Assembly: GCF_011299595.1 (NCBI RefSeq)
Contig: NZ_CP049867.1
Location: 1,302,001 to 1,366,000 of the forward strand
Direction of reading: 5' to 3'
Source of the DNA: Nocardioides sp. HDW12B
GTDB taxonomy: Bacteria; Actinomycetota; Actinomycetes; Propionibacteriales; Nocardioidaceae
Length of the DNA: 64,000 nt
The notes beneath the pieces were generated by a model. The model searched no databases. It saw only the letters and a program-made list of their open reading frames with translations, and was not told the origin of the DNA. This document shows positions 38,772 to 59,092 of this stretch, one piece after another. The position numbers and the translations under genes are program-made. Each line of letters begins with the position of its first letter. Within the stretch, counting starts at the first letter, position 1.

Positions 38772-38777
38772 GTCGCG

Positions 38778-40010: not shown

Positions 40011-40786
40011 CCGAGGTTCGCCGAGATCCGCAACGCGGTGTCCAGCAGGGGACGGGTCAGGTGTCGGATGCCGGCATCGACCTCATCGACGAGCTCGGCC
40101 ACGGACACCGAGGCGACCACCCGCCCAAGGGGGTCGCGAATGGGAGCGGCCACCGAGCACATGCCCGGTTGTGACTCACCTCGGTTCTCGGCAAAACCCT
40201 GACGCCGAACCCGGGCCAGCTCCTCGAGCAGCGTCCTGGCACTGGTGATGGTGCGGGGCGTCTTGGCCGCCAAGCGCATCGATCCCACCGTACTGCGCTG
40301 CTGTTCCAGCGGCAGGAACGCCAGCAGAACCTTGCCGCTGGACGTGGCATGGGCCGCGTTGCGGGCCCCGACCGCACGGAAGACGGGGATCGCGCCGGGG
40401 CCCTCCCGACGCTCGACGTACAGCACGTCGTCACCGTCCAGAACGCCGATGTGCAGCGTCCCGGGGGTGGCGCTACGAAGCCGGTCGAGGGGCAACGTAG
40501 AGGCCTCGTGCAATCGCTGAGCCGTCTCAGCGCTGGCACCCAACGAGCGCATCGTTGCGGTCAGCCGGAACAACCCGGTTTCCTCTACCTTCTCCAGCAG
40601 TCCCTCCTCCACCAGCGTCCAGATGACCCTGTGGGCCGTGCTCTTGCCGATACCCGCTCGTTGCGCCAGCTGGGTGACGCCGAGCTGAGTGCTGTGCTTG
40701 CCGAATTCCCGCAAGATCCGCGCCGCCGCCGCGACACTCGACAGGCGCTCCTTCTCCGGCTCCTTGTCCCGCACCGAATCGCTCAT
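39998..40786 (-). CDS. IclR-family regulator of the aromatic island
   Basis: 262 residues. Winged helix ~18-80: SSVAAAARILREFGKHSTQL, LAQRAGIGKSTAHRVIWTLVEEGLLEK. Effector domain: AAHATSSGKVLLAFLPLEQ, GFAENRGESQPGMCSVAAPIRDPLGRVVASV. IclR proteins of this kind (PcaR, PobR, OhpR groups) control aromatic pathways with pathway intermediates as ligands. ATG at 40786 gives a normal N-terminus (MSDSVRDKEPEKERLSS) and overlaps the previous stop. It is transcribed away from the main catabolic operon, and is the only regulator in the island besides the antitoxin. Confidence 0.9.
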   Translation of the reverse strand: MSDSVRDKEPEKERLSSVAAAARILREFGKHSTQLGVTQLAQRAGIGKSTAHRVIWTLVEEGLLEKVEETGLFRLTATMRSLGASAETAQRLHEASTLPLDRLRSATPGTLHIGVLDGDDVLYVERREGPGAIPVFRAVGARNAAHATSSGKVLLAFLPLEQQRSTVGSMRLAAKTPRTITSARTLLEELARVRRQGFAENRGESQPGMCSVAAPIRDPLGRVVASVSVAELVDEVDAGIRHLTRPLLDTALRISANLGWQP

Positions 40787-41532
40787 CTGCTGACGTCGTC
40801 CAGTACGGCCCTCAACGCTTCCAGAGCAGACACGCCGGCCGGCAGGGACACCCGGTGCTCCGTGAGCTCGGCCGCTAGCAGCGCCGAGGCCCGCGGGAGC
40901 CCACGACGGACGCACACACCGAACTCGTCGACGGTGGCGGACAGAAGGGGCAGGGCATGTCGCAGTCCCTCCAGATCGCGGCCGGTCTTGGCGTGCTGGT
41001 TGGCCAGCGCCACTCCCGAGTGCTGGGCGTGATGGGGTCCCAGCCCTCCGCCGACGTCAACGGTCAGGTGGTACAGGACGTCATCCATGCCGAGAACGCG
41101 GCGAACCTCGGCGGGTTGGTCCTCCTGCAGCAACCCAAGTGCTGGAAGGACGGACGGGTCGTAGAACCGCAGGACCCAGGTGAGCCCGAGGTAGTCCTCA
41201 ACGATCTCCACCTCGGGCCCCTGAGGGGCCGGCAGATGATCTGCGGTCGCCAACAGGTGTAGCTGCCGGGTTGCGGCGGCCACGACGGTCACCCGCTGTC
41301 CGGCGACGAGGGGCAATCTGCCACGTTCACCGGCCGGAAGGTGACGCGTGTGATCCAAGTACGCGCCATGCAGCGCGAGCACGTAGTCACTGACCAGCTG
41401 GCGCATCGCCTCCGGCTCGGCTGGAACGGCGTTGGTGGACACGCCCTGAGTGTGGGCCTCATGCGACCTGGTCAACATCTGCTGTCCCGTATGGCGGAAC
41501 ACGTCCTGCGTAGGGGTCGGGCGGTCAGTCAT
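40783..41532 (-). CDS. Unrecognised protein linked to the aromatic operon
   Basis: Up to 249 residues from ATG 41532 (MTDRPTPTQDVF). Because that start lies only 9 bases from the divergent dioxygenase start, internal ATGs at 41478 or 41406 (the latter with GGAGGCG directly upstream) are plausible. No known family was recognised. It is soluble, helix-rich in its first half (MRQLVSDYVLALHGAYLDHT), with VAGQRVTVVAAATRQLHLLATADHL, DVLYHLTVDVGGGLGPHHAQHSG and GVCVRRGLPRASALLAAEL. The His-rich GLGPHHAQHSG segment could bind metal. It is translationally coupled to the IclR gene (4-base overlap), so it may be a co-regulator or small enzyme of the pathway. Confidence 0.6.
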   Translation of the reverse strand: MTDRPTPTQDVFRHTGQQMLTRSHEAHTQGVSTNAVPAEPEAMRQLVSDYVLALHGAYLDHTRHLPAGERGRLPLVAGQRVTVVAAATRQLHLLATADHLPAPQGPEVEIVEDYLGLTWVLRFYDPSVLPALGLLQEDQPAEVRRVLGMDDVLYHLTVDVGGGLGPHHAQHSGVALANQHAKTGRDLEGLRHALPLLSATVDEFGVCVRRGLPRASALLAAELTEHRVSLPAGVSALEALRAVLDDVSR

Positions 41533-41541
41533 GTTGCTCGC

Positions 41542-42633
41542 ATGGCAGATGTGAACGGCGTCACAGGCCACCAGGACCTGGTGGAAGGCACCCCGGCCGG
41601 CACGCGCCGGGAGTTCGCCAAGGGCGCACCCCCTGACGGCGCCCGGTTCGATCCGTCGGACACCCGGCAGGCGCACCGCTTCTCAGGGCGCAGCACGGTC
41701 CCGGGAAAGCCGCGCGGGATCCTGCGCCTGGGTCACGTCGACGTGACCGTCACCGACCTCGACCTCGCTGCGGCTTACTACACGGGCGTCATGGGCATGG
41801 ACATCACCGCCCGGACCGAGGACTCGGTCTACCTCAAGTGCTGGGACGAGGAGGACCACCACTCCCTCCGGCTGCGGTACGCCCAGCGCATGGGGATGGA
41901 TCTGATGTCGTTCAAGGTCCACCACGAGGACGACCTCGCCGACCTCGAGAACCGCGTCGGACGCTACGGCTTCCCGGTCGAGCGCATCAGCAGGGGAGAG
42001 GTGCTCGGGCAAGGCGAGTCCATCCGGTTCTCCACCCCAAGCGGACACATCATGGAGCTGGTCGCCGACGTCGAGAAGGTCGGCACATCACGACCCCGTC
42101 ACCAGCTCGAACCGAGCAGCGACAGCGAGCCCTTCCCCCGCGACCGCATCTGCCCGCCGCGGATGGACCACATGCTCATCAACGCCGAGGAGGTCGGCGA
42201 GTCGACAAGGTTCTTCATGGACGTCCTCGGCTTCCGCATCACCGAACAGCTCCTCGACGGCAACGGCCACCAGCTCGGAACATGGATGGAACGCTCCCAC
42301 TCACCCCACGACCTCGCCATCGTTCACGGCCCCAACGGCGGGCTTCACCACTTCGCGTTCTGGCTCGATGACTGGGACGACGTGCGCGACTCCGCGGACG
42401 TCCTCGCCTACAACGGCATCCAGCTCGACGTCGGACCCACCCGGCACGGCATCACCCGCGGATCCACCATCTACTTCTTCGACCCGCTCGGCACCCGCAA
42501 CGAGGTGTTCACCGGCGGCTACCGACCCGATCCCGATTTCCCCACCCTGACCTGGACCGAGGACAACATCGGCCGCGCCGTCTTCTACTACGAAGGCGAG
42601 GTCAACGACCGCTTCATGAGAGTGCACACCTGA
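41542..42633 (+). CDS. Extradiol catechol dioxygenase (VOC, type I), copy 1
   Basis: 363 residues from ATG 41542; GTG 41551 or 41581 are alternatives. Residues ~1-55 are an unusual N-terminal extension rich in Gly/Arg/Asp. The rest is a two-module vicinal-oxygen-chelate enzyme like XylE/C23O: ILRLGHVDVTVTDLDLAAAYY, YLKCWDEEDHHSLRL. Fe(II) ligands: His210 (RMDHMLI), His269 or 270 (GGLHHFAFW) and Glu321 (TRNEVFTGG). It cleaves a catechol next to the hydroxyls. It heads the main operon and its stop overlaps the start of a paralogous copy. Confidence 0.88.
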   Translation: MADVNGVTGHQDLVEGTPAGTRREFAKGAPPDGARFDPSDTRQAHRFSGRSTVPGKPRGILRLGHVDVTVTDLDLAAAYYTGVMGMDITARTEDSVYLKCWDEEDHHSLRLRYAQRMGMDLMSFKVHHEDDLADLENRVGRYGFPVERISRGEVLGQGESIRFSTPSGHIMELVADVEKVGTSRPRHQLEPSSDSEPFPRDRICPPRMDHMLINAEEVGESTRFFMDVLGFRITEQLLDGNGHQLGTWMERSHSPHDLAIVHGPNGGLHHFAFWLDDWDDVRDSADVLAYNGIQLDVGPTRHGITRGSTIYFFDPLGTRNEVFTGGYRPDPDFPTLTWTEDNIGRAVFYYEGEVNDRFMRVHT

Positions 42634-43544
42634 TGACGATTCTGCGCCTTTCCCACGTCGAGATCCGCGTACCCGATCTCGAGCTCGCCACTGCGTACTA
42701 CTCCGAGGTCGTCGGGATGATCGAGACCGGACGAGACGCCAACCGCGTGTTCCTGAAGTGCTGGGACGAGCACCAGCACCACAGCGTCGTGCTCACCATG
42801 GAACCCACTCACGGGCTCAACCACTTCGGGTTCAAGGTCACCGACTCCGAAGACCTCGACCACTATCAGGAGCGCCTCGAGGCAGCTGGCGTCGCTGTTC
42901 ACCGCTACGCCGCCGACGAGTGGGCTCCCGGTCACGGGACCTCCATCCGGTTCGAGCTCCCCAGCGGTCACCAGATGGAGCTCGTCTACGGCATGCAGCA
43001 GGTCGGCAACCTCCTCCCGCAGACCAACCCGCCTCCGCGTCCGATGGGTCTCACCGGCATCGCCCCTCCCCGGGTCGACCACATCTTCCTCACCGCCGAG
43101 GAGGTCGACACCAACACGCGATTCCTCGCCCAGCACCTCGACTTCCGGCTCACCGAGCAGGTGATGGGCGACGACGGCTACCAGATCGCCAGCTGGCTGG
43201 AGGTCAGCCACCGCTCCCACGACATCGCCTTCATCACCGGACCCAACGGCGGCCTTCACCACTTCGCCTACTGGGTGGACGGGTGGAACGACCTTCGCAA
43301 CGCCGCAGACGCGTGCGTCTACCACGGAGTGAACGTCGAGACGAACCCCACCCGACACGGCGCCACCCGCGGGCAATGCCTCTACTTCTTCGACCCCCTC
43401 GGCAACCGCAACGAGATGTTCACCGGCGGCTACTGGGTCGACCCCGGAGCCGAACCCGTGACCTGGACCGAGGCCGAGATGGGACGGGCGATGTTCTATT
43501 ACGACGGCGTCGTGAACCAGCAGTTCCTCACGGTCCACAGTTGA
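42633..43544 (+). CDS. Extradiol catechol dioxygenase (VOC, type I), copy 2
   Basis: 303 residues, the normal catechol 2,3-dioxygenase length. Fe(II) ligands His150 (RVDHIFL), His209/210 (GGLHHFAYW) and Glu261 (NRNEMFTGGYW) match the H-H-E triad of XylE. It is clearly paralogous to copy 1 over its whole length (shared KCWDE, HGxTRG, YFFDPLG blocks) but lacks the N-terminal extension. Overlap of start and stop (ATGA) couples the two. The pair may differ in substrate range or form a mixed oligomer. Confidence 0.92.
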   Translation: MTILRLSHVEIRVPDLELATAYYSEVVGMIETGRDANRVFLKCWDEHQHHSVVLTMEPTHGLNHFGFKVTDSEDLDHYQERLEAAGVAVHRYAADEWAPGHGTSIRFELPSGHQMELVYGMQQVGNLLPQTNPPPRPMGLTGIAPPRVDHIFLTAEEVDTNTRFLAQHLDFRLTEQVMGDDGYQIASWLEVSHRSHDIAFITGPNGGLHHFAYWVDGWNDLRNAADACVYHGVNVETNPTRHGATRGQCLYFFDPLGNRNEMFTGGYWVDPGAEPVTWTEAEMGRAMFYYDGVVNQQFLTVHS

Positions 43545-43554
43545 GGTGCCGCAG

Positions 43555-44619
43555 ATGAGCATCGACGAGCACAGCAGCCCGGGCGCCCTGCCGCGCACCG
43601 AACGCCCTGACGCACCCGCCTACCTGACCCGTCACCGGGTACGCCGTTCTGCCCAGCCCGCCGCTGACCAGGCAGCGGAGGCGGAGGAGGACACGTCCGT
43701 TCCGCTCTACCTGCGCCAGTTCAGAGGCCGCGGGGACCACCGCAGCGACCCGGTCATGTACGACGGCAACGTCGTCGGCAACGCCCGCGCCTGGGCGGAG
43801 GTGACCCGCACCAAGGAGATCGTGCCCGAGCGACGCGACCAGCTCGCCGACATCGACTGCGACATCTACCTCGTACGGCACGGCGAGACGCAGGGCTACT
43901 CCTCCGAGTCGGGTCTGACGCCGCTCGGGTCGTGGCAGGCACACCGCCGCGGCCAGGAGCTGGCGCGCCGCGTCTTCGACGGCCAGAAGGTCGAGCTGCT
44001 GTGCGCCCCCACCAACCGGGCACGGCAGACGGCCGAGCACCTGCGCCGGGGACTCCTCGACAACGTCGAGCTCTACGGACGCGGCGAACCCGACATCAGC
44101 CAGCTCAACGACGACCGCAACTTCCGCAACTTCGAGGTCGCCACACCCGAAGGCCCCAGGGACGTCACTAGCGCCTTCCGCCTCTACCACCGCGAGATGG
44201 AGAAGTACGAGCGCGTCGGACTCGGCGAGCGGCCCGGCTGGTTGGTCGACGTCGACCGGTTCTGGGGAATCCAGCAGGGAGGCGGCGACCCGATCACCCA
44301 CTGGCTGACGATGCCGATGATGTACTTCGAGCCCCCCGTCTCATGTGTGCGCAGGTTCTGGCGCGGCATCCTGACGGCTCGGGAGAACACCGATGCCCGC
44401 AGCATCATCGTCGCCACCCACTCCGGGCCGATCCGGGCGTTCGCCACCCTCGCCATGGGCTACGACCCCGGCGAGCCGTTCAACACCGAGTTCGTCCGGG
44501 TTCGCCTCGTCGCCGGCGGCACCACGGCTCTCGTGCTCTACCGCAACCGCGTCCAGGAAGTCGTCATCCCCGACCTCGACGCGCTGCCCCCGAACTCCGA
44601 CACCCGATTCCAGGAGTGA
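43555..44619 (+). CDS. Histidine phosphatase-family protein, candidate aryl-phosphate phosphatase
   Basis: 354 residues. The first ~100 are a non-conserved extension. The histidine phosphatase core starts at IYLVRHGETQGYSSESGLTPLG, with the phospho-accepting His in RHG, the Arg of NRARQTAEHLRRG and the second catalytic His in IIVATHSGPIRAFATLAMG. The active-site residues R-H-G, R, E and H appear intact. Placed just before the two PEP-synthase-like genes, it could hydrolyse a phosphorylated aromatic intermediate. ATG 43555 is preferred, with GAGG upstream, over GTG 43546. Confidence 0.83.
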   Translation: MSIDEHSSPGALPRTERPDAPAYLTRHRVRRSAQPAADQAAEAEEDTSVPLYLRQFRGRGDHRSDPVMYDGNVVGNARAWAEVTRTKEIVPERRDQLADIDCDIYLVRHGETQGYSSESGLTPLGSWQAHRRGQELARRVFDGQKVELLCAPTNRARQTAEHLRRGLLDNVELYGRGEPDISQLNDDRNFRNFEVATPEGPRDVTSAFRLYHREMEKYERVGLGERPGWLVDVDRFWGIQQGGGDPITHWLTMPMMYFEPPVSCVRRFWRGILTARENTDARSIIVATHSGPIRAFATLAMGYDPGEPFNTEFVRVRLVAGGTTALVLYRNRVQEVVIPDLDALPPNSDTRFQE

Positions 44620-44624
44620 CCCAG

Positions 44625-45728
44625 ATGACCGAATGCCCCAGCGTCCTGCCGTTCGGCAACCTGGCCGCCGAGTTCCACCCCCAGGTCGGCGGCAAGTGCG
44701 CCTCCTTGGGAGTGATGATCCAGGCCGGGCTCCCCGTCCCGCCAGGATTCGCGATCACCACCCACGCCTTCGCGGAGGCCGGTGAAGCCTCCGGCTTGAT
44801 GCCGCGCATCAGCGAGCTCCTCGCGCAGACCGACATCACGGACTCGGCCGCCCTCGAGGCCGCTGCCGCACAAGCCCGCGAAATGGTGACCAGCTGGAAG
44901 CTGCTGGACGAGCACCAGAACCTCCTCGACCAGAACTACGCCGAGCTGTGCGAGCTCGTCGGTATCCCGGACGTCCCGGTCGCCGTCCGCTCCTCCGCTA
45001 CCTCCGAGGACTCCCCGGACGCATCGTTCGCCGGCGAGCACGACACCTACTTGTGGGTGTGCGGCATCGACAACGTGCGGCAGAAGGTCCGCGAGTGCTG
45101 GGCGAGCCTGTTCACGGAGCGGGCCATCGTCTACCGAGCCGAGATGGGCTACCCCCACGACGAGGTCGACATGGCCGTCGCCGTGCAGAAGATGGTCAAG
45201 CCCCGTAGCGCGGGCGTCGCCTTCACCCTCGACCCGACCAACGGCGACCGGTCCGGCATCTGCATCGACGCGGCCTGGGGTTTCGGCGAAGGGGTCGTCT
45301 CCGGCGACGTCACCCCGGACAACTTCCTGGTCGACAAGGTCATGTGGAGCATCAACCGGCGAACCATCAGCCCCAAGACCCACGCCCACCTGCTGGTCGC
45401 GTCCGACAACGGCGCCCACCCGACGGTCGGCCGTGTGGAACTGCCGGCGGAGCAGGTCCACGCCCCGTCGCTGACCGACGAGGAGATCGTCGCCGTAGCG
45501 AGGCTGGCCCGCACCGCGGAGAAACACTACGGGAGCCCGCAGGACATCGAGTGGGCCGTCGACGAGGACCTCCCGCCCGGCGAAAACGTCGTCCTCCTCC
45601 AGGCGCGCCCCGAAACCGTGTGGAGCAAGAAGCACCACGCCGTCAGCGGCAAGAAGGACCCCATGGCCTCCATCGTCGACACCTTGGTCAACCCCCTCTC
45701 TGCCAGGAAGGGGGCCGCGACGGGCTGA
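44625..45728 (+). CDS. PEP-synthase-like ATP-binding subunit (PpsB/CreI-type aryl kinase)
   Basis: 367 residues covering only the N-terminal, ATP-grasp part of PEP synthase/PPDK: VGGKCASLGVMIQAGLPVPPGFAITTHAF, the nucleotide-binding VAVRSSATSEDSPDASFAGEHDTYL, and AWGFGEGVVSGDVTPDNFLVDK, ending VLLQARPETVW. The phosphohistidine and PEP/pyruvate domains are missing; the first is encoded by the next gene. The size fits the ~40-kDa subunit of Thauera phenylphosphate synthase. With its partner it should transfer phosphate from ATP via His to an acceptor. CAGGAG precedes ATG 44625. Confidence 0.88.
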   Translation: MTECPSVLPFGNLAAEFHPQVGGKCASLGVMIQAGLPVPPGFAITTHAFAEAGEASGLMPRISELLAQTDITDSAALEAAAAQAREMVTSWKLLDEHQNLLDQNYAELCELVGIPDVPVAVRSSATSEDSPDASFAGEHDTYLWVCGIDNVRQKVRECWASLFTERAIVYRAEMGYPHDEVDMAVAVQKMVKPRSAGVAFTLDPTNGDRSGICIDAAWGFGEGVVSGDVTPDNFLVDKVMWSINRRTISPKTHAHLLVASDNGAHPTVGRVELPAEQVHAPSLTDEEIVAVARLARTAEKHYGSPQDIEWAVDEDLPPGENVVLLQARPETVWSKKHHAVSGKKDPMASIVDTLVNPLSARKGAATG

Positions 45729-45801
45729 CTCGGGTCAGCACAGCGCACTTGCGCGCACATCCCACGACTCGACACCTCACCCGACGCAAGGAAGAAGACC
45801 C

Positions 45802-47616
45802 ATGGCCGATCGTTTCCCCAGCCCCTTCGAGATCGAAGCACCCGACGGTGCCGACGGCTGGCAAGAGCTGTACTCCTACTCCGCCGTGTTCTCCAGGGAA
45901 CGCCGCGACTACGAGGACGGCGGCTTCTGGTTCCACGACGGAGTCCACTGGCCCGAGGCCCTCACGCCATGGGACGCCGGCGTGTTCGAGGTCGCCATCG
46001 CCTCGCTCGGCCAGTACAACACCCGCCACTACCTCGTCCCGCCCGCCTACGGCGTCGACTTCCGTATCCTCAACGGCTACGCCTACCTCAGCCCCGTGCC
46101 GGCCCCGGAGGGCGACATCGAGAGCCGGGTGCCGCACTTCATGGAGCGGGCCGGCTACTACTTCGCCAACTGGGACCGCCTCTACGACGACTGGCTGGTC
46201 AAGGTCCGGGCGTTGGTGCAGCAGATGAGCGAGCTCGACTTCAGCCCGCTGCCCGAGATGGAGGACATGGACGTCATCACCTCCGGCGCCGGCCGCGGGT
46301 CCGGTGACCGGTTGCTCTCCACCTACCACCGGCTCCTCGATCACGTCGTCACCCTGTGGCAGCACCACTTCGAGTTCCTCAACCTCGGCTACGCCGCCTA
46401 CCTCGACTTCTTCGGCTTCTGCAAGGCCGCCTTCCCCTCCATCCCCGACCTGGCAATCGCCAAGATGGTCGCCGGCGTCGACGTCGACCTGTTCAAGCCC
46501 GACGACCACCTCAAGAGCCTCGCCCGGCTGGCCGTGAGCAGCAGCATCGACGACCGCTTCGACGGCGGCAGCCCCGACGAGGTGTGGGCCAAGCTCGGGA
46601 CCGACGAGGCCGGGCGGGCGTGGATCGCCGAGTGGGACAAGGCCGCGGAACCGTGGTTCAACTTCTCCACCGGTTCCGGGTTTTACCACTCCGACAAGAT
46701 CTGGATCCAGAACCTCGAGGTCCCCCTGGGCTACATCACCGACTACATCGTCAAGGTCAAGGAGGGCGTGGACCTCAACCGGCCCGTGGAAAAGCTGCAC
46801 GCCGAGCGCGACCGGGTCGCCTCCGAGTACCGCGAGCTGCTCGACTCCGACGACGACCGCGAGACGTTCGACGGCAAGCTCGGCCTCTCGCGCACTGTGT
46901 TCCCCTACGTGGAGAACCACAACTTCTACGTCGAGCACTGGGCCCACTCGGTGATCTGGCGCAAGATGCGCGAGCTCGGCGACGTGCTCAAGGACGCCGG
47001 CTTCATCGCCGAGACCGACGACGTGTTCATGTTCCGCCGCTCCGAGCTGGTCGAAGTCCTGTTCGACCTGTACGCGGGATGGGCGGTTGGTGCCCCCTCG
47101 CGGGGCCCCGCCCTGTGGCCCCAGCAGATCGAGCGCCGCCACGCCATCCACAACACCCTCAAGGGCTGGTCGGCCCCGCCGGCGCTCGGTGTGCCACCCG
47201 AGGTCGTCACCGAGCCCTTCACCGTCATGTTGTGGGGCATCACTTCCGACTCGGTGTCGGCCTGGCTCAACACCGGCAGCGACTCCGACGACGGTTCCCT
47301 GAGCGGCTTCGCGGCCTCGCCCGGCCTCGTCGAGGGACCCGCGCGCGTCATCTTCTCCGCCGACCAGATCAGCGAGATCGAAGACGGCGAGATCCTCGTC
47401 GCCCCCCTGACCGCACCGTCCTGGGCGCCGGTGTTCGGCAAGATCAAGGCCACCGTCACCGACGTCGGCGGAATGATGAGCCACGCGGCCATCGTCTGCC
47501 GCGAGTACGGCCTCCCGGCCGTCACCGGCACCGCGTTCGGCACCAAGAACATCACCACCGGCCAGCTGATCCGCGTGGACGGCAACACCGGCACGGTCAC
47601 GATCCTCGAGGGCTGA
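45802..47616 (+). CDS. PEP-synthase-like phosphohistidine subunit (PpsA/CreH-type aryl kinase)
   Basis: 604 residues, matching the ~70-kDa phenylphosphate synthase subunit. The C-terminal ~110 residues are the swivelling phosphohistidine domain: LVEGPARVIFSADQI, ILVAPLTAPSWAPVF, and VGGMMSHAAIVCREYGLPAVTG with His561 as carrier. The N-terminal ~480 residues, rich in Trp/Tyr/Phe (GFWFHDGVHWPEALTPWD, FEFLNLGYAAYLDFFGFCKAAFP), have no counterpart in PEP synthase proper and probably bind the acceptor. No PEP/pyruvate TIM barrel is present, so this is not a gluconeogenic enzyme. 73 non-coding bases separate it from the ATP-grasp subunit. Confidence 0.87.
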   Translation: MADRFPSPFEIEAPDGADGWQELYSYSAVFSRERRDYEDGGFWFHDGVHWPEALTPWDAGVFEVAIASLGQYNTRHYLVPPAYGVDFRILNGYAYLSPVPAPEGDIESRVPHFMERAGYYFANWDRLYDDWLVKVRALVQQMSELDFSPLPEMEDMDVITSGAGRGSGDRLLSTYHRLLDHVVTLWQHHFEFLNLGYAAYLDFFGFCKAAFPSIPDLAIAKMVAGVDVDLFKPDDHLKSLARLAVSSSIDDRFDGGSPDEVWAKLGTDEAGRAWIAEWDKAAEPWFNFSTGSGFYHSDKIWIQNLEVPLGYITDYIVKVKEGVDLNRPVEKLHAERDRVASEYRELLDSDDDRETFDGKLGLSRTVFPYVENHNFYVEHWAHSVIWRKMRELGDVLKDAGFIAETDDVFMFRRSELVEVLFDLYAGWAVGAPSRGPALWPQQIERRHAIHNTLKGWSAPPALGVPPEVVTEPFTVMLWGITSDSVSAWLNTGSDSDDGSLSGFAASPGLVEGPARVIFSADQISEIEDGEILVAPLTAPSWAPVFGKIKATVTDVGGMMSHAAIVCREYGLPAVTGTAFGTKNITTGQLIRVDGNTGTVTILEG

Positions 47617-47695
47617 ACGCTCCCTCCGCCCACTCTGCCCACCGGCCCGACCGCATCTGAAGGCCTGAGACCGTCCCACAAGGAGAGACAACGAC

Positions 47696-48952
47696 ATGCT
47701 GACTGTCGAGCAGAACGAAGAACTGACCCAGGTGGGTCCCGGCACTCCCATGGGTGAGCTGCTCCGGCGCTACTGGTACCCCATCGCGTTCGAGCAGGAC
47801 TTCGACAAGCGACCCAGCAAGACCGTGCGGCTGCTCGGGGAGAACTGGACGCTGTACAAGACCCCCTCGGGCAAGTACGGGATCATCGGCGAGGCCTGCC
47901 CCCACCGCCGTGCCTCCCTGACCTACGGCATCGTCCACGAGGACGGCATCCGTTGTGGCTACCACGGCTGGAAGTACGACTTCAACGGCCAGTGCGTCGA
48001 GCAGCCGGCCGAGAACGACAACACGACCTTCCGCGACAAGATCAAGGCCAAGGCCGGCGTCGCCCAGGTCCTCGGAGGAATGGTCTGGGTCTACGTCGGA
48101 CCCACCCCGGTGCCCGAGCTTCCCCGCTTCGACGTCTACGTCCTGAACGGCATCAGGGACGTCGGCGTCGCGACGCTGAACTGCAACTGGTTGCAGATCA
48201 TGGAGAACTCCGTCGACCCGCACCACGTGGAGTGGCTGCACGGCGCCTACTTCGAGTTCCTGGGCCAGACCCAGGGATTCGAGGCACCCAAGTCGTTCCA
48301 GAAGAAGCACATCAAGGTCGCCTTCGACGAGTTCGAGTACGGCATCATCAAGCGTCGGATCCTCGAGGGACACGGCGAAGAGAACGACGACTGGGCCATC
48401 GGCCACCCGCTGATGTTCCCCTACGGCATGCGCGTCGGCGGGCAGTGGATCGACCAGATGCAGATCCGCGTGCCGATCGACGACACCCACACCTGGAAGC
48501 TCTTCTACTCCCTGCACCACCCCGAGGGCGGCACCTGGGAGAAGCAGGAGCGTCCCGTGGTCTACGACTTTGAGATCTACGACGAGGACGGCAACTTCGT
48601 CACCGACTACGTTGAGGGCCAGGACGCGATGGCTTGGGTCTCGCAAGGCGAGATCACCGACCGTACCCAGGAACACCTGGGGCGCTCCGACCAGGGCGTC
48701 GCCATGCTCCGCAAGATGTTCAAGGAGGCGATGTCCTCGGTCGAGGACGGTGAGGACCCGCCGGGCGTGGTGCGCGAGAAGCACGACGTGATCGACCTGC
48801 CCTGCGAGAAGGACAAGTTCGGTGCCGGCACCGCGTTCACCGACCAGTGGATCAACGGTGGCTCGATGCGGTACAGCCCGATCCGCGAGGAGCTCCTCAA
48901 GCTTCACCGCGACGCCGCCGCCGTGCGGGAGAAGGCGGACTCCGGTGCGTGA
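47696..48952 (+). CDS. Rieske ring-hydroxylating oxygenase, phthalate-dioxygenase type
   Basis: 418 residues. Rieske centre ligands Cys68/His70 (CPHRRASL) and Cys87/His90 (CGYHGWKYDFNG). The mononuclear iron site is in MENSVDPHHVEWLHG (N-x2-D-x2-H-x4-H) near residues 175-188. The wide C-terminal pocket and the absence of a beta-subunit gene place it with the homo-oligomeric phthalate 4,5-dioxygenase / O-demethylase group. It would be the ring-activating (or O-dealkylating) step. The cognate PDR-type reductase is encoded three genes downstream. It lies directly after the aryl-kinase-like pair, which is the key contextual clue. Good ribosome site before ATG 47696. Confidence 0.93.
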   Translation: MLTVEQNEELTQVGPGTPMGELLRRYWYPIAFEQDFDKRPSKTVRLLGENWTLYKTPSGKYGIIGEACPHRRASLTYGIVHEDGIRCGYHGWKYDFNGQCVEQPAENDNTTFRDKIKAKAGVAQVLGGMVWVYVGPTPVPELPRFDVYVLNGIRDVGVATLNCNWLQIMENSVDPHHVEWLHGAYFEFLGQTQGFEAPKSFQKKHIKVAFDEFEYGIIKRRILEGHGEENDDWAIGHPLMFPYGMRVGGQWIDQMQIRVPIDDTHTWKLFYSLHHPEGGTWEKQERPVVYDFEIYDEDGNFVTDYVEGQDAMAWVSQGEITDRTQEHLGRSDQGVAMLRKMFKEAMSSVEDGEDPPGVVREKHDVIDLPCEKDKFGAGTAFTDQWINGGSMRYSPIREELLKLHRDAAAVREKADSGA

Positions 48953-49238
48953 GATCGACCAAGCACGGCGGGCGGCCCACCACGGACCGATGCCGGACCT
49001 GCCGCCGGACCCCTACCTGCTGCCGCCGCCGGGGGACTGGTTCGCCTCCGACGCGGCCCACCACCTGCTCGACAAGCCGAAGTTCTGCCCTTCCTGCGCA
49101 TCGTCGTTGGACCGCGGCCTGACCACGGAGTGGTGGAGCGGGCACGAGCGGATCTTCATGACGTGGTGCGCGGCGTGCCGGTGGACCGGGAACGTGGTGC
49201 TGTTCGACAAGGCGATCATCGAGGAGCCGGAGCACTGA
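48945..49238 (+). CDS. Small zinc-ribbon-like protein
   Basis: 97 residues from GTG 48945, which overlaps the oxygenase stop by 8 bases; ATG 48990 is an alternative. Two C-x2-C knuckles, FCPSC and WCAAC, are separated by ~30 residues, suggesting a zinc ribbon or rubredoxin-like fold. The N-terminus is proline-rich (PDLPPDPYLLPPPGDW). No family was recognised. The tight coupling to the Rieske oxygenase suggests a small accessory factor (assembly, electron transfer or regulation). Confidence 0.72.
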   Translation: MREIDQARRAAHHGPMPDLPPDPYLLPPPGDWFASDAAHHLLDKPKFCPSCASSLDRGLTTEWWSGHERIFMTWCAACRWTGNVVLFDKAIIEEPEH

Positions 49239-49239
49239 G

Positions 49240-49905
49240 ATGACTGTCCCCGCCCTGGTGCTCGACTTCGGTGGCCCGGTCCTCCTCACGCCCTTCGAGC
49301 TGGTCGAGGAGCGGACCGGGACCCCGATCCACGCCCTCCTGCACGGCCGCGGACCGCTGGCATCCCCAGACGACCCGGATCCGGTCTGGCAGGACCTCCA
49401 GGCGGGCCGGATCACCGAACGTGACTACTGGGCAGACCGAGCGCTGCAGTGGGACCGGGAGGGGGGCCACGGCTCGGACATCAGGGCGATGATCGCGCAC
49501 CTGTACGAGCCGCCGCGCCCCAGCCTGGTCCGTGAGGAGGCGCGTCGGCTGGTGCGCGACGCCCTAGCCGCCGGGCACCCCGTCGGGATCCTCACCAACG
49601 ACCTGCACGCCTTCCACTCCGAGGAGTGGGTGCAGCAGATCGAGATCGTCGGTGACGTCGACGTCGTCGTGGACGGATCCCTCGAAGGGCACCTCAAGCC
49701 CGACCCCAGGCTCTACGTGCTGCTGTCCGAACGGCTCGACGTCAGCTTCGCCGACATGGTCTTCCTCGACGATCAGGCCACCAACATCAGAGGTGCCGAG
49801 GCGCTCGGCATCCCATCGGTGCTGTTCGACGTCACCGACCCCGAGACGTCCTACGCAGAGGTGCGCAAGCTCCTCCAGCTACCCGAGGAGGACCACGATG
49901 GTTGA
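49240..49905 (+). CDS. HAD-superfamily hydrolase (subfamily IA), candidate phosphatase
   Basis: 221 residues. Motif I is ALVLDFGGPVLL: the nucleophile Asp is present but the usual second Asp is Gly, as in the YihX-like and epoxide-hydrolase-N-like HAD groups. Motif II GILTNDLHAF, Lys in LKPDPRLY, motif IV MVFLDDQATNIRGAEALG. The all-helical cap (~20-95) follows motif I. A phosphatase role fits a pathway that passes through an aryl phosphate; a dehalogenase or unrelated repair role is also possible. It overlaps the reductase start by 8 bases. Confidence 0.82.
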   Translation: MTVPALVLDFGGPVLLTPFELVEERTGTPIHALLHGRGPLASPDDPDPVWQDLQAGRITERDYWADRALQWDREGGHGSDIRAMIAHLYEPPRPSLVREEARRLVRDALAAGHPVGILTNDLHAFHSEEWVQQIEIVGDVDVVVDGSLEGHLKPDPRLYVLLSERLDVSFADMVFLDDQATNIRGAEALGIPSVLFDVTDPETSYAEVRKLLQLPEEDHDG

Positions 49906-50866
49906 GCAGCGCGAGCTTCGCGTCACCCAGATGACCCTCGAGGCCGAGGGAGTGCTCTCGCTCCGGCTCACCCGGATCGAGAGCGACAAACCGCTACCGG
50001 CGTGGGAACCCGGATCCCACATCGACGTCTACGTCCCCGACGGCACGACCCGGCAGTACTCGCTGTGTGGCGACCCCGAAGACCTGTCCTCCTACCAGGT
50101 GGCGGTCCTGCGTGAACCCGAAGGCCGCGGCGGCTCGGCCTTCATCCACGACGAGCTCAGGGTCGGAGACCGGCTGCTGGTGACGCGCCCCAAGCAAGGC
50201 TTCGCCCTCGAAGACGCGACCTACCACGCACTGGTCGCCGGCGGGGTCGGCATCACTCCCATCATGGCGTTCGCCGAGCACCTCGACCGCCAAGGTCGCC
50301 CGTTCCGACTGGTCTACGGCGGCCGCACCCGGGACTCCATGGCGTTCTGCCCTCGCCTGGGCGCTCTGGGGGAACGGGTGGAGCTGCTCGCCGAGGACGT
50401 CGACGGCAGGCCCGACCTCGACGACGTCGTCAAGCAGCTCCCCGACGGTGGGCTGATCTACGTGTGCGGGCCACTGCCGCTGCTGCGAGCCGTCGAGGCG
50501 GCCGCCGAAGCCGTCCACGGACCCGACCAGGACGTGGTGCGGTTCGAGCTCTTCAGCCGCGCCGGCGTCGAACCGAAGGAGTCGGTGCCTCTCGACGGCG
50601 ACAACTACGAGCTCGTGCTCGCCAAGTCCGGCCACACCCTGCGGATGAAGCCCGACGCCAACATCCTCGACACCGTCCTCGCGCTGGGCGTCGAGGTCGA
50701 GAACGACTGCCGCGACGGGATCTGCGGGTCCTGCATCACCAGCGTCGTCGCAGGCACCGTCGACCACCGGGACCTCGTCCTGACACGCAAGGAGCAAGCC
50801 GCCATGAACAAGATGATGATCTGCTGCTCCCGACCGACCAGCGACCGGCTGGAGCTCGACCTGTGA
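49898..50866 (+). CDS. Phthalate dioxygenase reductase-type oxidoreductase (FMN, NADH, 2Fe-2S)
   Basis: 322 residues. FMN-binding barrel ~1-100 with TRQYSLCGDPED. NAD(H) domain ~105-225 with LVAGGVGITPIMAFAEHL and YVCGPLPLLRAVE. C-terminal plant-type ferredoxin ~235-322 with CRDGICGSCITSVV and the distal Cys in MMICCSRPT (C-x4-C-x2-C ... C). This domain order is the PDR/VanB class, the proper electron donor for the Rieske oxygenase at 47696. The start lies within the end of the HAD gene. Confidence 0.93.
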   Translation: MVEQRELRVTQMTLEAEGVLSLRLTRIESDKPLPAWEPGSHIDVYVPDGTTRQYSLCGDPEDLSSYQVAVLREPEGRGGSAFIHDELRVGDRLLVTRPKQGFALEDATYHALVAGGVGITPIMAFAEHLDRQGRPFRLVYGGRTRDSMAFCPRLGALGERVELLAEDVDGRPDLDDVVKQLPDGGLIYVCGPLPLLRAVEAAAEAVHGPDQDVVRFELFSRAGVEPKESVPLDGDNYELVLAKSGHTLRMKPDANILDTVLALGVEVENDCRDGICGSCITSVVAGTVDHRDLVLTRKEQAAMNKMMICCSRPTSDRLELDL

Positions 50867-51672
50867 TAGATGACGCCACCCGGACCGAGGTCGCCGGGCT
50901 CCTCCTCGACGCCTACGAGACCGGCAAACCCATTCCGCCGCTCACCGCGACCTACGACCTGACGCTCGAGGACGCGTACGCCATCCAGGTCCTGCAGATC
51001 GAACGGTTCCTCGCGCAAGGCCGCAGCGTGAGAGGACGCAAAGTGGGACTGACCAGCGCCGCCATGCAGCGACTGCTGGGAGTCGACGAACCCGACTTCG
51101 GGCACCTCCTCGACGACTTCTTCTACCTCGAGCACGCGCCGATCCCGCTGACCCGCTTCGTCCAGCCCCGGATCGAACCCGAGGTCGCGTTCGTGCTGAA
51201 GAAGCCCCTGACCGGGCCCGGCGTCACCGCGCACGAAGCCATCGGCGCGGTCGACTTCGTCCTCCCCGCGCTCGAGATCGTCGACAGCCGCATCGAGGAC
51301 TGGAGGATCGGCCTGTTCGACACCATCGCCGACAACGCCAGCTCCGGCGCCGTGGTCCTCGGCTCCACACCCACCCCCCTAGCCGACGTCGACCTCCGCC
51401 TCTCCGGCTGCGTCATGACCCGCAACGGGGCCGTGGCCGGCACCGGAGCCGGCGGCGCAGTCCTCGGATCGCCGTTGACTTCACTGGTCTGGCTCGCCAA
51501 CACCGTCGGCGCCCGCGGAGTCGCCCTCGAAGCCGGACAGGTCATCCTCCCCGGCTCCGTCTGCGCGATGTCACCCGTCGCCGCAGGCGACGTCTTCACT
51601 GCGACCTTCGCCGGCCTCGGCAGCGTCACCGCCCGATTCGCCACCCACGACTCCGAGCAGAATGAGGTCTGA
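50863..51672 (+). CDS. 2-oxopent-4-enoate hydratase (meta pathway)
   Basis: 269 residues of the hydratase/decarboxylase family. Landmarks: [78 protein letters not shown] and [20 protein letters not shown]. The family hydrates 2-hydroxypenta-2,4-dienoate to 4-hydroxy-2-oxovalerate (metal-dependent). Its position just before acetaldehyde dehydrogenase and aldolase matches DmpE-F-G order, so hydratase is favoured over decarboxylase. GTG start overlaps the reductase stop. Confidence 0.9.
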
Positions 51673-51673
51673 C

Positions 51674-52681
51674 ATGACGAACGCCAAGGCAACCGCGGCC
51701 ATCGTCGGCCCCGGCAACATCGGGACCGACCTGATGTTCAAGCTGATGCGGCGCAGCGAGATCATCGAACCGCGCTACATGGTCGGCGTCGACCCCGCCT
51801 CCGACGGTCTGGCACGCGCCAAGCGCCGCGGACTCGAGACCAGCGCCGAGGGCGTCGACTGGCTCCTCGCCCGAGGCGAGCTCCCCGACATCGTCTTCGA
51901 GTGCACCTCGGCCAAGGCCCACGCGGCGAACGCACCCCGCTACGCCGAAGCAGGCATCCTCGCCGTCGACCTCACACCCGCCGCAGTCGGTCCCTACCTG
52001 TGCCCCCCGGTGAACCTGTCTTTCAACCTCGACGCCCCCAACGTCAACATGATCACCTGCGGCGGCCAGGCCACCGTGCCCATAGTCCACGCGGTCTCCT
52101 CGGTCGTACCCGTGCCGTACGCCGAGATCGTCGCGTCGGTCTCCAGCCGCTCCGCCGGACCCGGCACCCGCGCCAACATCGACGAGTTCACCGAGACCAC
52201 CGCATCCGCAGTCGAAGCCGTCGGCGGCGCGACTGTCGGCAAGGCCATCATCATCCTCAACCCCGTCGAACCACCCCTGATGATGCGGAACTCGGTGTTC
52301 TGCGCCATCCCGGCCGAAGCAGGCGAAGCGGGCCCGCTGCAGGACCAGATCCTGGAGTCCGTGCACGCGATGGTGCGCACCGTCCAGGAGTACGTGCCCG
52401 GCTACCACCTGCGAGCAGAACCGCAGTTCGACCCCGCCCGGGGCACCTGGCGCGACCAGGCCCGCATCTTCGTCCCCATCGAGGTCAAGGGCCGCGGCGA
52501 CTACCTCCCCGACTACGCCGGGAACCTCGACATCATCACCGCCGCCGCTGCCCGCGTAGGCGACCTCATGACGGCTCACCGCCTCGGCGTGGAGACCTCG
52601 TGGAAGTCTTCCGCAGACCTCGGCGAGCTCGAGCCCGACGAGGCAGCGGTGGTGGCGACCCACCAGAAGGCAGGAGTCTGA
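51674..52681 (+). CDS. dmpF: Acetaldehyde dehydrogenase (acylating)
   Basis: 335 residues. NAD-binding [20 protein letters not shown], catalytic Cys in [11 protein letters not shown], and conserved [19 protein letters not shown]. It converts acetaldehyde channelled from the aldolase into acetyl-CoA. Encoded 2 bases before the aldolase gene, the usual partner of a channelling complex. ATG 51674 is chosen (GAGG upstream) over ATG 51662. Confidence 0.95.
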
Positions 52682-52683
52682 CC

Positions 52684-53820
52684 ATGGGAGACATGATCAT
52701 CCGCCCGGAGGACGCACCGTTGGTAACGACCGAGGTCACCGAGACCGACGTACGCGCCTACACCCCGGTGGCCGGACCCGCCGACCTCCGCATCACCGAC
52801 TCCACGCTGCGCGACGGATCGCACGCGATGTCCCACCAGTTCACCGAAGAGCAGGTCCGCGGCGTCGTCGCAGCCCTCGACCGCGCCGGCGTGCAGGTGA
52901 TCGAGGTCAGTCACGGCGACGGCCTCGGCGGGTCGAGCTTCAACTACGGGTTCAGCAAGGTCGACGAGTTCGACCTGATCGCCGCCGCGGTCGACGAGGC
53001 CGAGCAGGCGAAGATCGCGATCCTGATGCTCCCGGGCCTGGGCACGCTGGGGCACCTGCGACGAGCCCACGGCGTCGGCGCATCGGTGGCACGCATCGCC
53101 ACCCACTGCACCGAGGCCGACGTCTCCGTCCAACACTTCGCCGAAGCCCGTGCACTCGGCATGGAGACCGTCGGGTTCCTCATGCTCTCCCACAGCACCA
53201 CCCCCCCAATCCTCGCGCAGCAGGCACGGATCATGGCCGACGCTGGCGCACAGTGCGTCTACGTCGTTGACTCCGCCGGTGCACTCGTCCTCTCCGACGC
53301 CCAGGAACGCATCCAGGCGGTCCTCGACGAGGTCGGCCGCGACGACGTGCAGGTGGGATTCCACGGCCACCAGAACCTCAGCCTCGGTGTGGCCAACTCG
53401 GTGCTGGCCTTCCAGGCAGGGGCCCGCCAGATCGACGGCGCCCTGTGCGCCCTGGGCGCCGGCGCCGGGAACTCACCCACCGAGGTTCTGGCCGCGACCT
53501 TCGAGCGCATGGGCATCCGCACCGGGGTCGACCTGGGCGACGTCCTCTCGGCTGCAGAGGAAGTGGTGCGTCCGTTCATCCCGCGGCTGCCGTGGATGGA
53601 CCGTGCCTCGATCACCCAGGGGTACGCCGGCGTCTACTCGTCCTTCCTGCTCCATGCAGAGCGGGCCGCCGAGCGGTACGGCGTCCCTGCCCACGCAATC
53701 CTGCAGAAGGTCGGCGAGTACGGGTACGTCGGTGGCCAGGAAGACATGATCATCGACATCGCCCTCCAGCTCTCCCAGGAGCAGGAGCTCGGCGACCTCG
53801 CCGCCGCGGGAGTCCGCTGA
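52684..53820 (+). CDS. dmpG: 4-hydroxy-2-oxovalerate aldolase
   Basis: 378 residues. DRE-TIM barrel with [17 protein letters not shown] (catalytic Arg and metal-binding Asp) and metal ligands in [19 protein letters not shown]. It splits 4-hydroxy-2-oxovalerate into pyruvate and acetaldehyde. The first ~30 residues ([22 protein letters not shown]) extend beyond typical DmpG proteins. The start follows the dehydrogenase stop by two bases, and the stop overlaps the next ATG. Confidence 0.95.
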
Positions 53821-54620
53821 TGACCACCTGGGACGTCGCGGGGGTGGCAGAGGAGCTGCTCAGGTGCGAGGACGAACGCCGCGACCGGGCCCCGTTCACC
53901 GACGAGTGGCCCGAGCTCGACCTCGACACCGGCTACACCATCCAGGACCTCACCCTGGAGAAGCGGCTGGCGCGGGGCGAGACGCTGGTCGGCGTCAAGC
54001 TCGGGCTCACCAGCCGTGCCAAGCAGGAGCGGATGAACGTCAACGTCCCGCTCGTCGCGTGGCTTACCGACGCGATGGTCCTCCCCGCTGGCGAGCGGGT
54101 GCCGCAGGAGCAGCTCATCCACCCTCGTGTGGAGCCAGAGATCGTGTTCGTAATGGGGGATCGGCTCGAGGGCCCCGGCGTCACCGCGGCGACCGCGATG
54201 GCGGCGGTCTCCATCGTCCTGGGCGGCGCCGAGGTGATCGACAGCCGCTACCGCGATTTCCGGTTCACCGCCGGCGACGTCGTGGCCGACAACGCCTCCT
54301 CCGGCGCCTATGTCACCGGCCCGGTCGGTGTCCCACCCAGTGAGCTCGACCTGTCCCTCGAGGCGGTGCTGGTGGAGGTCGACGGCCAGGTCGTCGACTC
54401 TGCGACCGGTGCGGCGGTCCTCGGCCACCCTGGAGAAGCGCTCGCCCTGGCCGCCAACGAGCTCGCCCGGCGTGGTCGCGCCATCGAACCAGGCTGGGTG
54501 GTCCTCACCGGCGGGATGACCGACGCCGTACCGATCCCGCCAGGGTCGTCGGTAGCAATGCACTTCACCAACCTCGGATCCGTCCACGTCCGCGGCGGGG
54601 AGGTTCAGCCATGCCCTTGA
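53820..54620 (+). CDS. 4-oxalocrotonate decarboxylase (meta pathway)
   Basis: 266 residues, paralogue of the genes at 37977 and 50863: [98 protein letters not shown]. Its position directly before the tautomerase and semialdehyde dehydrogenase genes (the oxalocrotonate branch) favours decarboxylase: 2-oxo-3-hexenedioate to 2-hydroxypentadienoate + CO2. It overlaps the tautomerase start by 10 bases. Confidence 0.9.
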   Translation: MTTWDVAGVAEELLRCEDERRDRAPFTDEWPELDLDTGYTIQDLTLEKRLARGETLVGVKLGLTSRAKQERMNVNVPLVAWLTDAMVLPAGERVPQEQLIHPRVEPEIVFVMGDRLEGPGVTAATAMAAVSIVLGGAEVIDSRYRDFRFTAGDVVADNASSGAYVTGPVGVPPSELDLSLEAVLVEVDGQVVDSATGAAVLGHPGEALALAANELARRGRAIEPGWVVLTGGMTDAVPIPPGSSVAMHFTNLGSVHVRGGEVQPCP

Positions 54621-54820
54621 TCGAGGTGACCATGGTCGAAGGCCGCACCCCACAGCAGGTCCGTGCCCTCATCTCCGCCCTGACTGACGCCGCCGTCGAG
54701 ACGGTCGCTGCTCCACGGGAGAGCATCCGGGTGGTCGTCCGGGAGGTGCCCGCCACCCACTGGGCGGCCGGGGACGTCACCATCGCCGAGCGCCGCACCC
54801 CAGAGGAGACGACACCGTGA
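54611..54820 (+). CDS. 4-oxalocrotonate tautomerase
   Basis: 69 residues, the normal length of the hexameric enzyme. The catalytic amino-terminal proline follows the initiator Met (MPLIEVTMVEGRTPQQV). A conserved Arg lies in SIRVVVREVP. It isomerises 2-hydroxymuconate to 2-oxo-3-hexenedioate. Overlaps both neighbours. Confidence 0.93.
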   Translation: MPLIEVTMVEGRTPQQVRALISALTDAAVETVAAPRESIRVVVREVPATHWAAGDVTIAERRTPEETTP

Positions 54821-56256: not shown

Positions 56257-56607
56257 CCATCCGCTCGTAGAGTTCGCACATGGATCTCGACCTCCAGGAC
56301 CGCGTCTTCATCATCACCGACGCGGAACCCGGACTTGGTGACGTTGTCGCGAGTGAACTCGAGACCGAGGCGCTCGAGTCGTGCGCAGCACGTCCAGCAA
56401 CCGCGCCGAGACGGACGGCCTTACGCTCGTGGCGCGGGCGGAGGCCGAATGGGGACGTCTCGACGGCGGCCTCGTCTTCGTACCGGCCTCAGAAGCAGGC
56501 TCGGTCCACGACGTTCGCGACGACGGATGGGCCCTTGGCTTCGAGACGACCTTCCTTCACGTCGTGGACACGCTCGGACAGATCTCGCGGGCACTACCTG
56601 CTGGAGG

Positions 56608-58010: not shown

Positions 58011-58381
58011 TGCTGGAGGGTCGCTGGTCGTCGTCTTCGATTCGGTGATCCACGAACCGGCGCCAGTGCGCTCTATGATCGGGGACGCGTTCGGTCGTGG
58101 CCTGGCGACGGTCGTCCTCCAGATGGCCGAGGAGCTGGGCCCCCGGGGAATCCGGACGAATGCGATACTGATGGGCCCCCTGGCCGGCAACCGCGAGCAG
58201 CCCGTCCTACCGGGGGAGGTCGCCTGCGCTCCGCCGGGCTGCTGCCGGACCACTGTCGGGATCTGGCTCCTGTCGAATCCGTGACGGACCTGGGCTTTGA
58301 GTCGTGTCCTGACCGGCATCGGGGGGCCGACTCCGGGCCCCGAACAAGCCACTTGGCTACCCTCGAAGTACACGCCTCATC

Positions 58382-59027: not shown

Positions 59028-59092
59028 ACCAGCGCGACGCCCTCCCGCGTATTCCAAACCGGACCGCCGCGCTTGGCTGAGAGGATGGCGGC

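Follow-up and report, generated by a model that had tools for sequence, protein, structure and literature searches.

A gene cluster of the actinobacterium Nocardioides sp. HDW12B joins a two-subunit dikinase to a Rieske non-heme iron oxygenase (RO) and to catechol meta cleavage. It lies in a stretch of 64,000 nucleotides (NZ_CP049867.1, positions 1,302,001 to 1,366,000, forward strand), here called the window. The linkage of this kinase with this oxygenase is established and specific, and we propose that the window encodes a new form of aromatic catabolism that begins with a phosphorylation. With modest confidence we favor an aerobic route from simple phenols to catechols that starts with phosphorylation and proceeds by phosphate-directed ring hydroxylation, its regiochemistry being left open; we consider it quite probable that the substrate of the RO is a phosphorylated phenol. 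The genes had been named in an earlier note on this DNA, and open frames, Pfam and NCBIfam place all of them where it had put them. Their order is catechol 2,3-dioxygenases 1 and 2, histidine phosphatase, ATP-grasp subunit, substrate-binding and swivel subunit, RO, a protein with two CxxC motifs, HAD hydrolase, reductase and lower meta pathway (Table 1). From the first dioxygenase to the aldolase all genes run in the same direction and lie -8 to 79 bp apart, in agreement with the claim that kinase, RO, reductase, two phosphatase candidates and meta pathway share one operon.

Kinase and RO were searched independently from each side in 394 genomes of the class, the own genome included. At 63% identity or more, a line set after the gap in identities had been viewed (the next values are 55% for both proteins), they occur in the identical set of 15 genomes, and chance neighborhood was rejected on this ground. 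In 14 of these genomes, the RO lies directly downstream of the swivel gene. In the 15th (G264), a contig end follows the swivel gene, and the RO starts on a different contig, 346 bp from its end. Separate occurrence of the two genes, which the earlier note had named as evidence that would speak against its pathway, is thus not what the genomes contain. The swivel subunit as such was found in 21 genomes, 15 at 63 to 100% identity and 6 at 47 to 55%; because the listing threshold was an E-value of 1e-60 or lower, kinases still further removed, for example that of locus L110 (8.6e-49), are not among the 21. Two of the six distant kinases have a CreJ-type P450 nearby, two a biotin carboxylase and two neither, and this RO is absent from the stretches of 8.0 to 19.9 kb around all six.

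A scan of the genome contigs for the RO gave 32 loci. The 22 loci with at least 75% identity keep the order from the dioxygenases through phosphatase, ATP-grasp subunit, swivel subunit and RO to the HAD hydrolase up to the contig ends, with the swivel subunit in 21 and the ATP-grasp subunit in 20 of them (L010 and L018 end at contig edges). The other 10 loci, at 29 to 60% identity, have no kinase in the stretch examined; among these, L035 matches at 60% over 171 residues at a contig end, with a Gfo/Idh neighbor and no kinase within 10 kb. RO paralogues of 51 to 55% identity are present in G051, G068 and G320 and a 44% match in G143; the surroundings of the three outside G068 were inspected (L109, L110 and L111). 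Both tandem dioxygenases (positions 41581 to 43544) are present in every cassette locus reaching that far, except L064. This early-branching locus has an IclR regulator, both kinase subunits, the RO and the CxxC protein, and neither a histidine phosphatase nor a catechol 2,3-dioxygenase in its 19.9 kb; hence, the smallest unit seen consists of kinase, RO and CxxC protein. Several lineages of actinobacteria share the conserved cassette. Judged by their titles, some of the records with cassette loci are metagenome assemblies that apparently come from lakes.

The kinase has the features of the two-component aromatic dikinases HpeHI, CreHI and PpsAB, namely, a PPDK_N subunit, a swivel subunit and the motif of the catalytic histidine. 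The swivel subunit has a single Pfam match, the mobile domain of PEP-utilizers (residues 526 to 597, E = 3.7e-23), and exceeds the cut-offs of three of the five PRK08296 models of NCBIfam (850 versus 650, 793 versus 578, and 713 versus 693 bits). A pyruvate/phosphoenolpyruvate (PEP)-binding domain was not found in it by Pfam, as the earlier note had read from the letters, and an ordinary PEP synthase was rejected for this reason. The predicted catalytic His561 lies within TDVGGMMSH, which matches the motif T/SxxGGxxxH described for HpeH (PMC12167813); all 49 kinases aligned for the tree carry this motif. An AlphaFold model for the subunit was poor (predicted local distance difference test score of 56) and was not used. 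This dikinase can safely be predicted to phosphorylate a phenolic hydroxyl. Queries with a CreJ-type P450, biotin carboxylase, biotin carrier, PpcA and PpcB had no match in the window (E of 1e-3), which bears out the claim that neither carboxylase nor P450 is present, and none in L005 to L026, L064 to L072 and L079 to L081 (E of 1e-10). The cre, hpe and pps pathways were therefore rejected for the window and the cassette loci. At locus L076 a P450, too, is found 5.6 kb from its kinase.

The trees, rooted at their midpoints, separate these proteins from their relatives. In the kinase tree (49 rows), the 34 RO-type rows stand on one side of a branch with a Shimodaira-Hasegawa-like approximate likelihood ratio support of 88, and the adjoining P450-linked rows on one with 92; L079 is counted as RO-linked, its contig ending before the RO. 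Haloarchaeal rows lie far off, and kinases linked to biotin carboxylase fall outside the clade of the window. In the RO tree (44 rows), 31 kinase-linked ROs are on one side of a branch with a support of 100, and L064, L065 and L066 split early in both trees. By context, the closest kinase group is that of Rhodococcus plasmid loci with a P450 (swivel identity of 55%). The P450 of the 4-cresol pathway oxidizes the methyl group. The nearest characterized relative by context is CreHI of that pathway, which argues for small phenols rather than hydroxyphenyl ketones as substrates.

The RO has a Rieske CxH...CxxH motif and a 2-His-1-Asp iron site. From alignment and knowledge of the family we take C68, H70, C87 and H90 to be the cluster ligands, H177, H182 and D310 the iron ligands and D174 the bridging residue. 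In the alignment C87, H90, D174, H177 and H182 are invariant and C68, H70 and D310 nearly so; in the alignment of the arginine position discussed below, D310 is Asp in every row, the only exception being a gap in the truncated L035. The fold is closest to phthalate dioxygenase (PDO) and isophthalate dioxygenase (IPDO), the nearest fold relatives of known function and both described as cis-dihydroxylases. Members of this fold are described as binding aromatic dicarboxylates, with PDO R244 and IPDO R234 contacting the substrate carboxylate (PMC12445078). The carboxylate arginine seen in the Comamonas testosteroni KF1 structures (7fjl/7v25 and 9ina/9ioy; PMC12445078) is replaced here by Ala or Lys, and an ordinary phthalate dioxygenase was rejected because this arginine is not kept and no dehydrogenase is a neighbor. 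The RO may bind phosphate.

The gene order and content suggest the following sequence of reactions. The dikinase would pass the β-phosphate of ATP via His561 to a phenolic hydroxyl, yielding an aryl phosphate, a step strongly suggested by the family. The RO, fed by the reductase and probably by a Rieske-type ferredoxin, would then oxidize the aryl phosphate; this would be the new step. That the kinase acts before the RO and that the phosphate directs the chemistry is likely, judging from the genes. Most economically, the RO would dioxygenate C1, which carries the phosphate, and C2, and the unstable geminal hydroxy-phosphate would shed its phosphate to give catechol. Since this loss would restore aromaticity, a dihydrodiol dehydrogenase would not be needed. 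We place this C1-C2 form only just short of an even chance. The catechol 2,3-dioxygenases and the meta pathway would finally convert catechol or methylcatechol to pyruvate and acetyl-CoA, as is well supported by their families, and the phosphatase-like proteins would return unused aryl phosphate to phenol or strip phosphate kept on the product.

Ring cis-dihydroxylation normally requires a dihydrodiol dehydrogenase. We searched for SDR and Gfo/Idh proteins, the two types found beside kinase-free relatives of the RO, within 5 kb of the RO. A match was found at 9 of 15 kinase-free versus 2 of 32 kinase-linked loci (Fisher P = 1.5e-4, relatedness ignored), with profiles built partly from the kinase-free loci and hence biased in sensitivity toward these. 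Among the 15 kinase-free loci, L029, L032 and L035 are short stretches or break off at the RO. The count omits the duplicate contigs L067, L068, L080 and L108 as well as L079, which has no RO; L018 counts as kinase-linked, its kinase lying on L079, another part of the same genome. Single queries (the SDR of a P450-type locus and the Gfo protein of L037, at any distance) gave the same trend: the SDR matched at six kinase-free and at no kinase-linked RO loci, and the Gfo protein at L035, L038, L039 and weakly at L013. Neither profile has a match in the window between 36001 and 60000, and in L009, L011 and L012 an SDR lies 7.5 to 8.6 kb from the RO. The genome G051 has both arrangements: the RO of L065 is linked to a kinase, whereas that of L109 (54% identity) is kinase free, with Gfo/Idh next door and its own meta pathway, a sister route; a hydrolase is also among the genes beside the latter. 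Arrival of the kinase thus tends to coincide with loss of the dehydrogenase. The scarcity of the dehydrogenase at kinase-linked loci favors oxidation of an aryl phosphate to a product that rearomatizes unaided. Dioxygenation at C1 and C2 with expulsion of phosphate is the simplest reading of this pattern, which monohydroxylation and O-demethylation would fit as well.

Besides the profile bias, several observations weigh against our proposal. At the position of the carboxylate arginine (A234), the 34 kinase-linked RO rows, three contigs being included twice, have Ala (28 rows) or Lys (6 rows); the arginine of PDO and IPDO is not conserved, so a phosphate site in the RO is hypothetical. The kinase clade has a support of just 88. 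Of the two kinase-linked loci with a dehydrogenase match, L013 has a Gfo/Idh gene at a distance of 3.2 kb from the RO, and L064 an SDR, weakly matched, at 4.9 kb; L109 is a case of an RO of the same family that feeds a meta pathway without a kinase. The common histidine phosphatase, finally, fits better with phosphate retained on the product than with its spontaneous loss.

The last point leads to ortho-monohydroxylation, in which the RO would hydroxylate C2 of the aryl phosphate and the histidine phosphatase or the HAD hydrolase would release catechol from 2-hydroxyphenyl phosphate. A homologue of the histidine phosphatase, encoded between the second dioxygenase and the kinase, is present in 31 of 34 kinase-linked loci, missing from L064 and from L010 and L018, which are cut by contig ends; THSGP is found in all 31 homologous loci and VRHG in 25, two of the six misses being truncated. 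The HAD homologue is present in 33 of 33 kinase-linked loci, adjoining the RO and CxxC genes except in L064, L065 and L066. A separate dephosphorylation step is also part of the Hpe pathway as described in PMC12167813. However, the nearest known fold relatives are dihydroxylases, L064 lacks the histidine phosphatase and has no adjacent HAD gene, and the HAD protein is without the second aspartate of motif I. We regard monohydroxylation as unlikely. The phosphatases may be safety valves, or they may complete the reaction, a point on which the main rival readings differ.

O-Dealkylation, which the earlier note had also allowed and which we hold to be distinctly improbable, would make similar use of them: a methoxyphenol such as guaiacol would be phosphorylated, O-demethylated by the RO to 2-hydroxyphenyl phosphate and dephosphorylated to catechol. 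The RO matches LigXa_C and VanA_C, no dihydrodiol dehydrogenase would be required, and HpeHI is described as accepting methoxylated phenols (PMC12167813), but the fold neighbors of the RO favor it less. Very improbably, the kinase merely traps or detoxifies phenol, which the phosphatases set free, and the RO acts on free phenol or another acid; the authors of HpeHI raised metabolic trapping and detoxification (PMC9618137) and at L109 a kinase-free RO from this family accompanies a meta pathway, but kinase and RO co-occur one to one and adjoin, the reduced locus L064 retains both, and presence of the kinase is associated with absence of a neighboring dehydrogenase.

The operon encodes catechol 2,3-dioxygenase, hydratase, aldolase, acylating dehydrogenase and semialdehyde dehydrogenase, some of them assigned by translation or position only; the gene at 50863 to 51672 we take to be a 2-oxopent-4-enoate hydratase from family resemblance and position. 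Both the hydrolase and the semialdehyde dehydrogenase branch of meta cleavage are present in the window, as is typical also of phenol and methylphenol operons of the dmp type. Together with dioxygenases above cut-off, the two branches make phenol and cresols the favored substrates, as far as sequence can tell, and guaiacol a possible one. Pfam Phenol_Hydrox had no match in the own genome and none in the control genomes, which makes it uninformative.

Upstream of the operon, a Rieske-type ferredoxin is fused to a meta-cleavage product hydrolase. The fusion is whole in L005, L007, L008, L011, L012, L021, L024 and L026, the two are separate genes in L006 and L009, and the ferredoxin half occurs alone in L013, L014, L023 and L025; the separate genes suggest that the ferredoxin serves the RO. 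For the reductase, a start at 49898 fits better than one at 49901. No homologue of this reductase was seen in L016 to L020, L022, L067 to L071, L080 and L081, where the gene for a pyridine-nucleotide-disulfide (FprA-like) reductase follows the HAD gene instead. In 33 of 33 kinase-linked loci, the gene after the RO encodes a homologue of the CxxC protein, as it does in the kinase-free loci L037 and L109 (34% each) and in L110 (43%); the protein may carry electrons or be an accessory subunit for this group of ROs.

Table 1. Predicted features of the window (positions count from its first nucleotide)
Feature	Coordinates	Strand	Basis and remarks
Mobile catabolic island	38122..56243	.	18.1 kb, 99.3% identical to Nostocoides sp. 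Soil756 (L005), blastn
Rieske-type ferredoxin (residues 7-95) fused to meta-cleavage product hydrolase (HsaD/BphD-like)	38778..40010	-	Pfam/NCBIfam
IclR-family regulator	39998..40915	-	Pfam IclR_C and HTH_IclR; divergent from operon; start codon uncertain
Catechol 2,3-dioxygenase 1	41581..42633	+	TIGR03211, 364 bits versus cut-off 320; start codon uncertain
Catechol 2,3-dioxygenase 2	42633..43544	+	TIGR03211, 368 bits versus cut-off 320
Histidine phosphatase-superfamily protein, candidate aryl-phosphate phosphatase	43555..44619	+	Pfam His_Phos_1 (frame 43546-44619)
Dikinase ATP-grasp subunit (HpeI/CreI/PpsB-like)	44625..45728	+	Pfam PPDK_N, E = 2e-105
Dikinase substrate-binding and swivel subunit (HpeH/CreH/PpsA-like), predicted catalytic His561	45802..47616	+	Pfam, NCBIfam, tree, motif
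Rieske non-heme iron oxygenase, phthalate/isophthalate dioxygenase group	47696..48952	+	Pfam Rieske (E = 1.1e-19), LigXa_C, VanA_C
97-residue protein with two CxxC motifs (zinc-ribbon- or rubredoxin-like)	48945..49238	+	Directly after RO
HAD hydrolase, second phosphatase candidate	49240..49905	+	Pfam HAD; motif DFGGP, without second Asp
RO reductase, C-terminal plant-type [2Fe-2S] domain	49898..50866	+	Pfam NAD_binding_1 and Fer2
2-Oxopent-4-enoate hydratase-like	50863..51672	+	Frame and translation, position
Acetaldehyde dehydrogenase (acylating)-like	51677..52681	+	Translation, position beside aldolase
4-Hydroxy-2-oxovalerate aldolase	52684..53820	+	TIGR03217, 476 bits versus cut-off 286
4-Oxalocrotonate decarboxylase-like	53820..54620	+	FAA_hydrolase family
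4-Oxalocrotonate tautomerase-like	54611..54820	+	Translation start MPLIEVTMVEGRT
Aldehyde dehydrogenase, probable 2-hydroxymuconic semialdehyde dehydrogenase	54817..56256	+	Aldedh, 1.7e-161

The cassette looks like a recently moved catabolic island in the window, given the 18.1-kb near-identity and the non-matching flanks: the remainder of the 21-kb Soil756 stretch has no match except one of 79% at the region of an IS256-like transposase (56824 to 58002). With a G+C content of 0.68, the block lies between a left flank of 0.73 and a right flank of 0.67. Just right of the edge of the island lies an SDR-like remnant (56280 to 58284), out of frame and split by the IS256-like transposase (56686 to 57891); this broken remnant is 7 to 9 kb downstream of the RO. 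A possible toxin-antitoxin pair (58443 to 59674; an excisionase-type helix-turn-helix and a PIN-like protein) was noted from the translation only. In 13 other stretches (10 distinct contigs, three of them represented twice), a reductase-like, a sucrase/ferredoxin-like and a large topoisomerase-subunit-like gene come after the cassette, the first two called by Pfam in L067 only and the last from its translation; the constancy of these genes suggests a fixed chromosomal place there.

Kinases of this kind stand beside Rieske enzymes elsewhere. In G320, which also has the main cassette, locus L110 (5528 to 10914) encodes a distant kinase pair (swivel subunit 28%, ATP-grasp subunit 41%, motif GGGMLSHAAIV) that adjoins an RO of 49% identity, a HAD protein and a CxxC protein. 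In a search with the swivel subunit, ten records had matches over at least 80% of its length. Four are haloarchaeal plasmids (Haladaptatus, two Natribaculum and Natrinema; L085, L086, L087 and L107) with the kinase pair at most 8 kb from an alpha/beta Rieske dioxygenase and a metallophosphoesterase, possibly an archaeal phosphorylation-dependent aromatic pathway; of the other six, two have a P450 near the kinase, three a biotin carboxylase and one ppc genes. An aldehyde dehydrogenase was also noted nearby at the four haloarchaeal loci. SDR and Gfo/Idh profiles had no match there, alcohol-dehydrogenase-type genes (L085 and L087) being outside their reach. These loci suggest that the pairing of kinase and Rieske enzyme arose more than once. 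Aniline dioxygenase systems place an ATP-dependent γ-glutamyl tag on the amine before Rieske oxidation at C1 and C2 to catechol and meta cleavage. They parallel the logic of the window, but there the tag is made by an unrelated glutamine-synthetase-like enzyme. As an oxygen analogue, phosphate would be the leaving group in a C1-C2 dioxygenation that needs neither a monooxygenase nor a dihydrodiol dehydrogenase, and this strategy would have been assembled repeatedly: from a PDO-type RO and the kinase clade of the window in actinobacteria of soil and fresh water, from a second kinase type and a related RO in L110, and from a distant kinase and an alpha/beta RO in haloarchaea. We put this forward tentatively, as a reading somewhat more apt to fail than to hold.

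Aerobic conversion of phenol to catechol is usually drawn as a single monooxygenase step. If our proposal is correct, the RO would be the fourth partner of this kinase family, after the Ppc carboxylase, P450 and biotin carboxylase, and aryl phosphates would be an added class of substrates for Rieske oxygenases. Phenols are of central importance both as pollutants and as products of lignin, and occurrence in lakes would suit the scavenging of dilute phenols. The new pathway proposed in the earlier note holds at the level of the gene combination; its chemistry is so far a deduction. Among the open-access papers listed in our searches, no title or abstract opening pairs an aryl-phosphate kinase with an RO, most subscription papers and preprints lying outside this scope. 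Researchers of this kinase family have called its rationale unclear (PMC9618137).

The known systems share the kinase and differ in what follows it. PpsAB of Thauera and Aromatoleum is described as a homologous two-subunit kinase with phenyl phosphate as the activated intermediate (PMC12167813, PMC9618137), but Ppc carboxylates it anaerobically, whereas the operon of the window is oxygen dependent; in Azoarcus KH32C (L084), ppc genes lie beside the kinase. CreHI of the 4-cresol pathway of Corynebacterium glutamicum (cited in PMC12167813) is closer in being aerobic and in phosphorylating first, but a P450 acts next, and the window has no P450 match. HpeHI of Rhodococcus rhodochrous GD02 (PMC12167813, PMC9618137) is, like the kinase of the window, a two-subunit dikinase of similar size with the same histidine motif, and the accounts of Hpe likewise place a kinase for a phenolic hydroxyl in an aerobic actinobacterial catabolic operon. 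The step that follows there is biotin-dependent carboxylation, whereas in the window it would be oxidation by the RO and meta cleavage.

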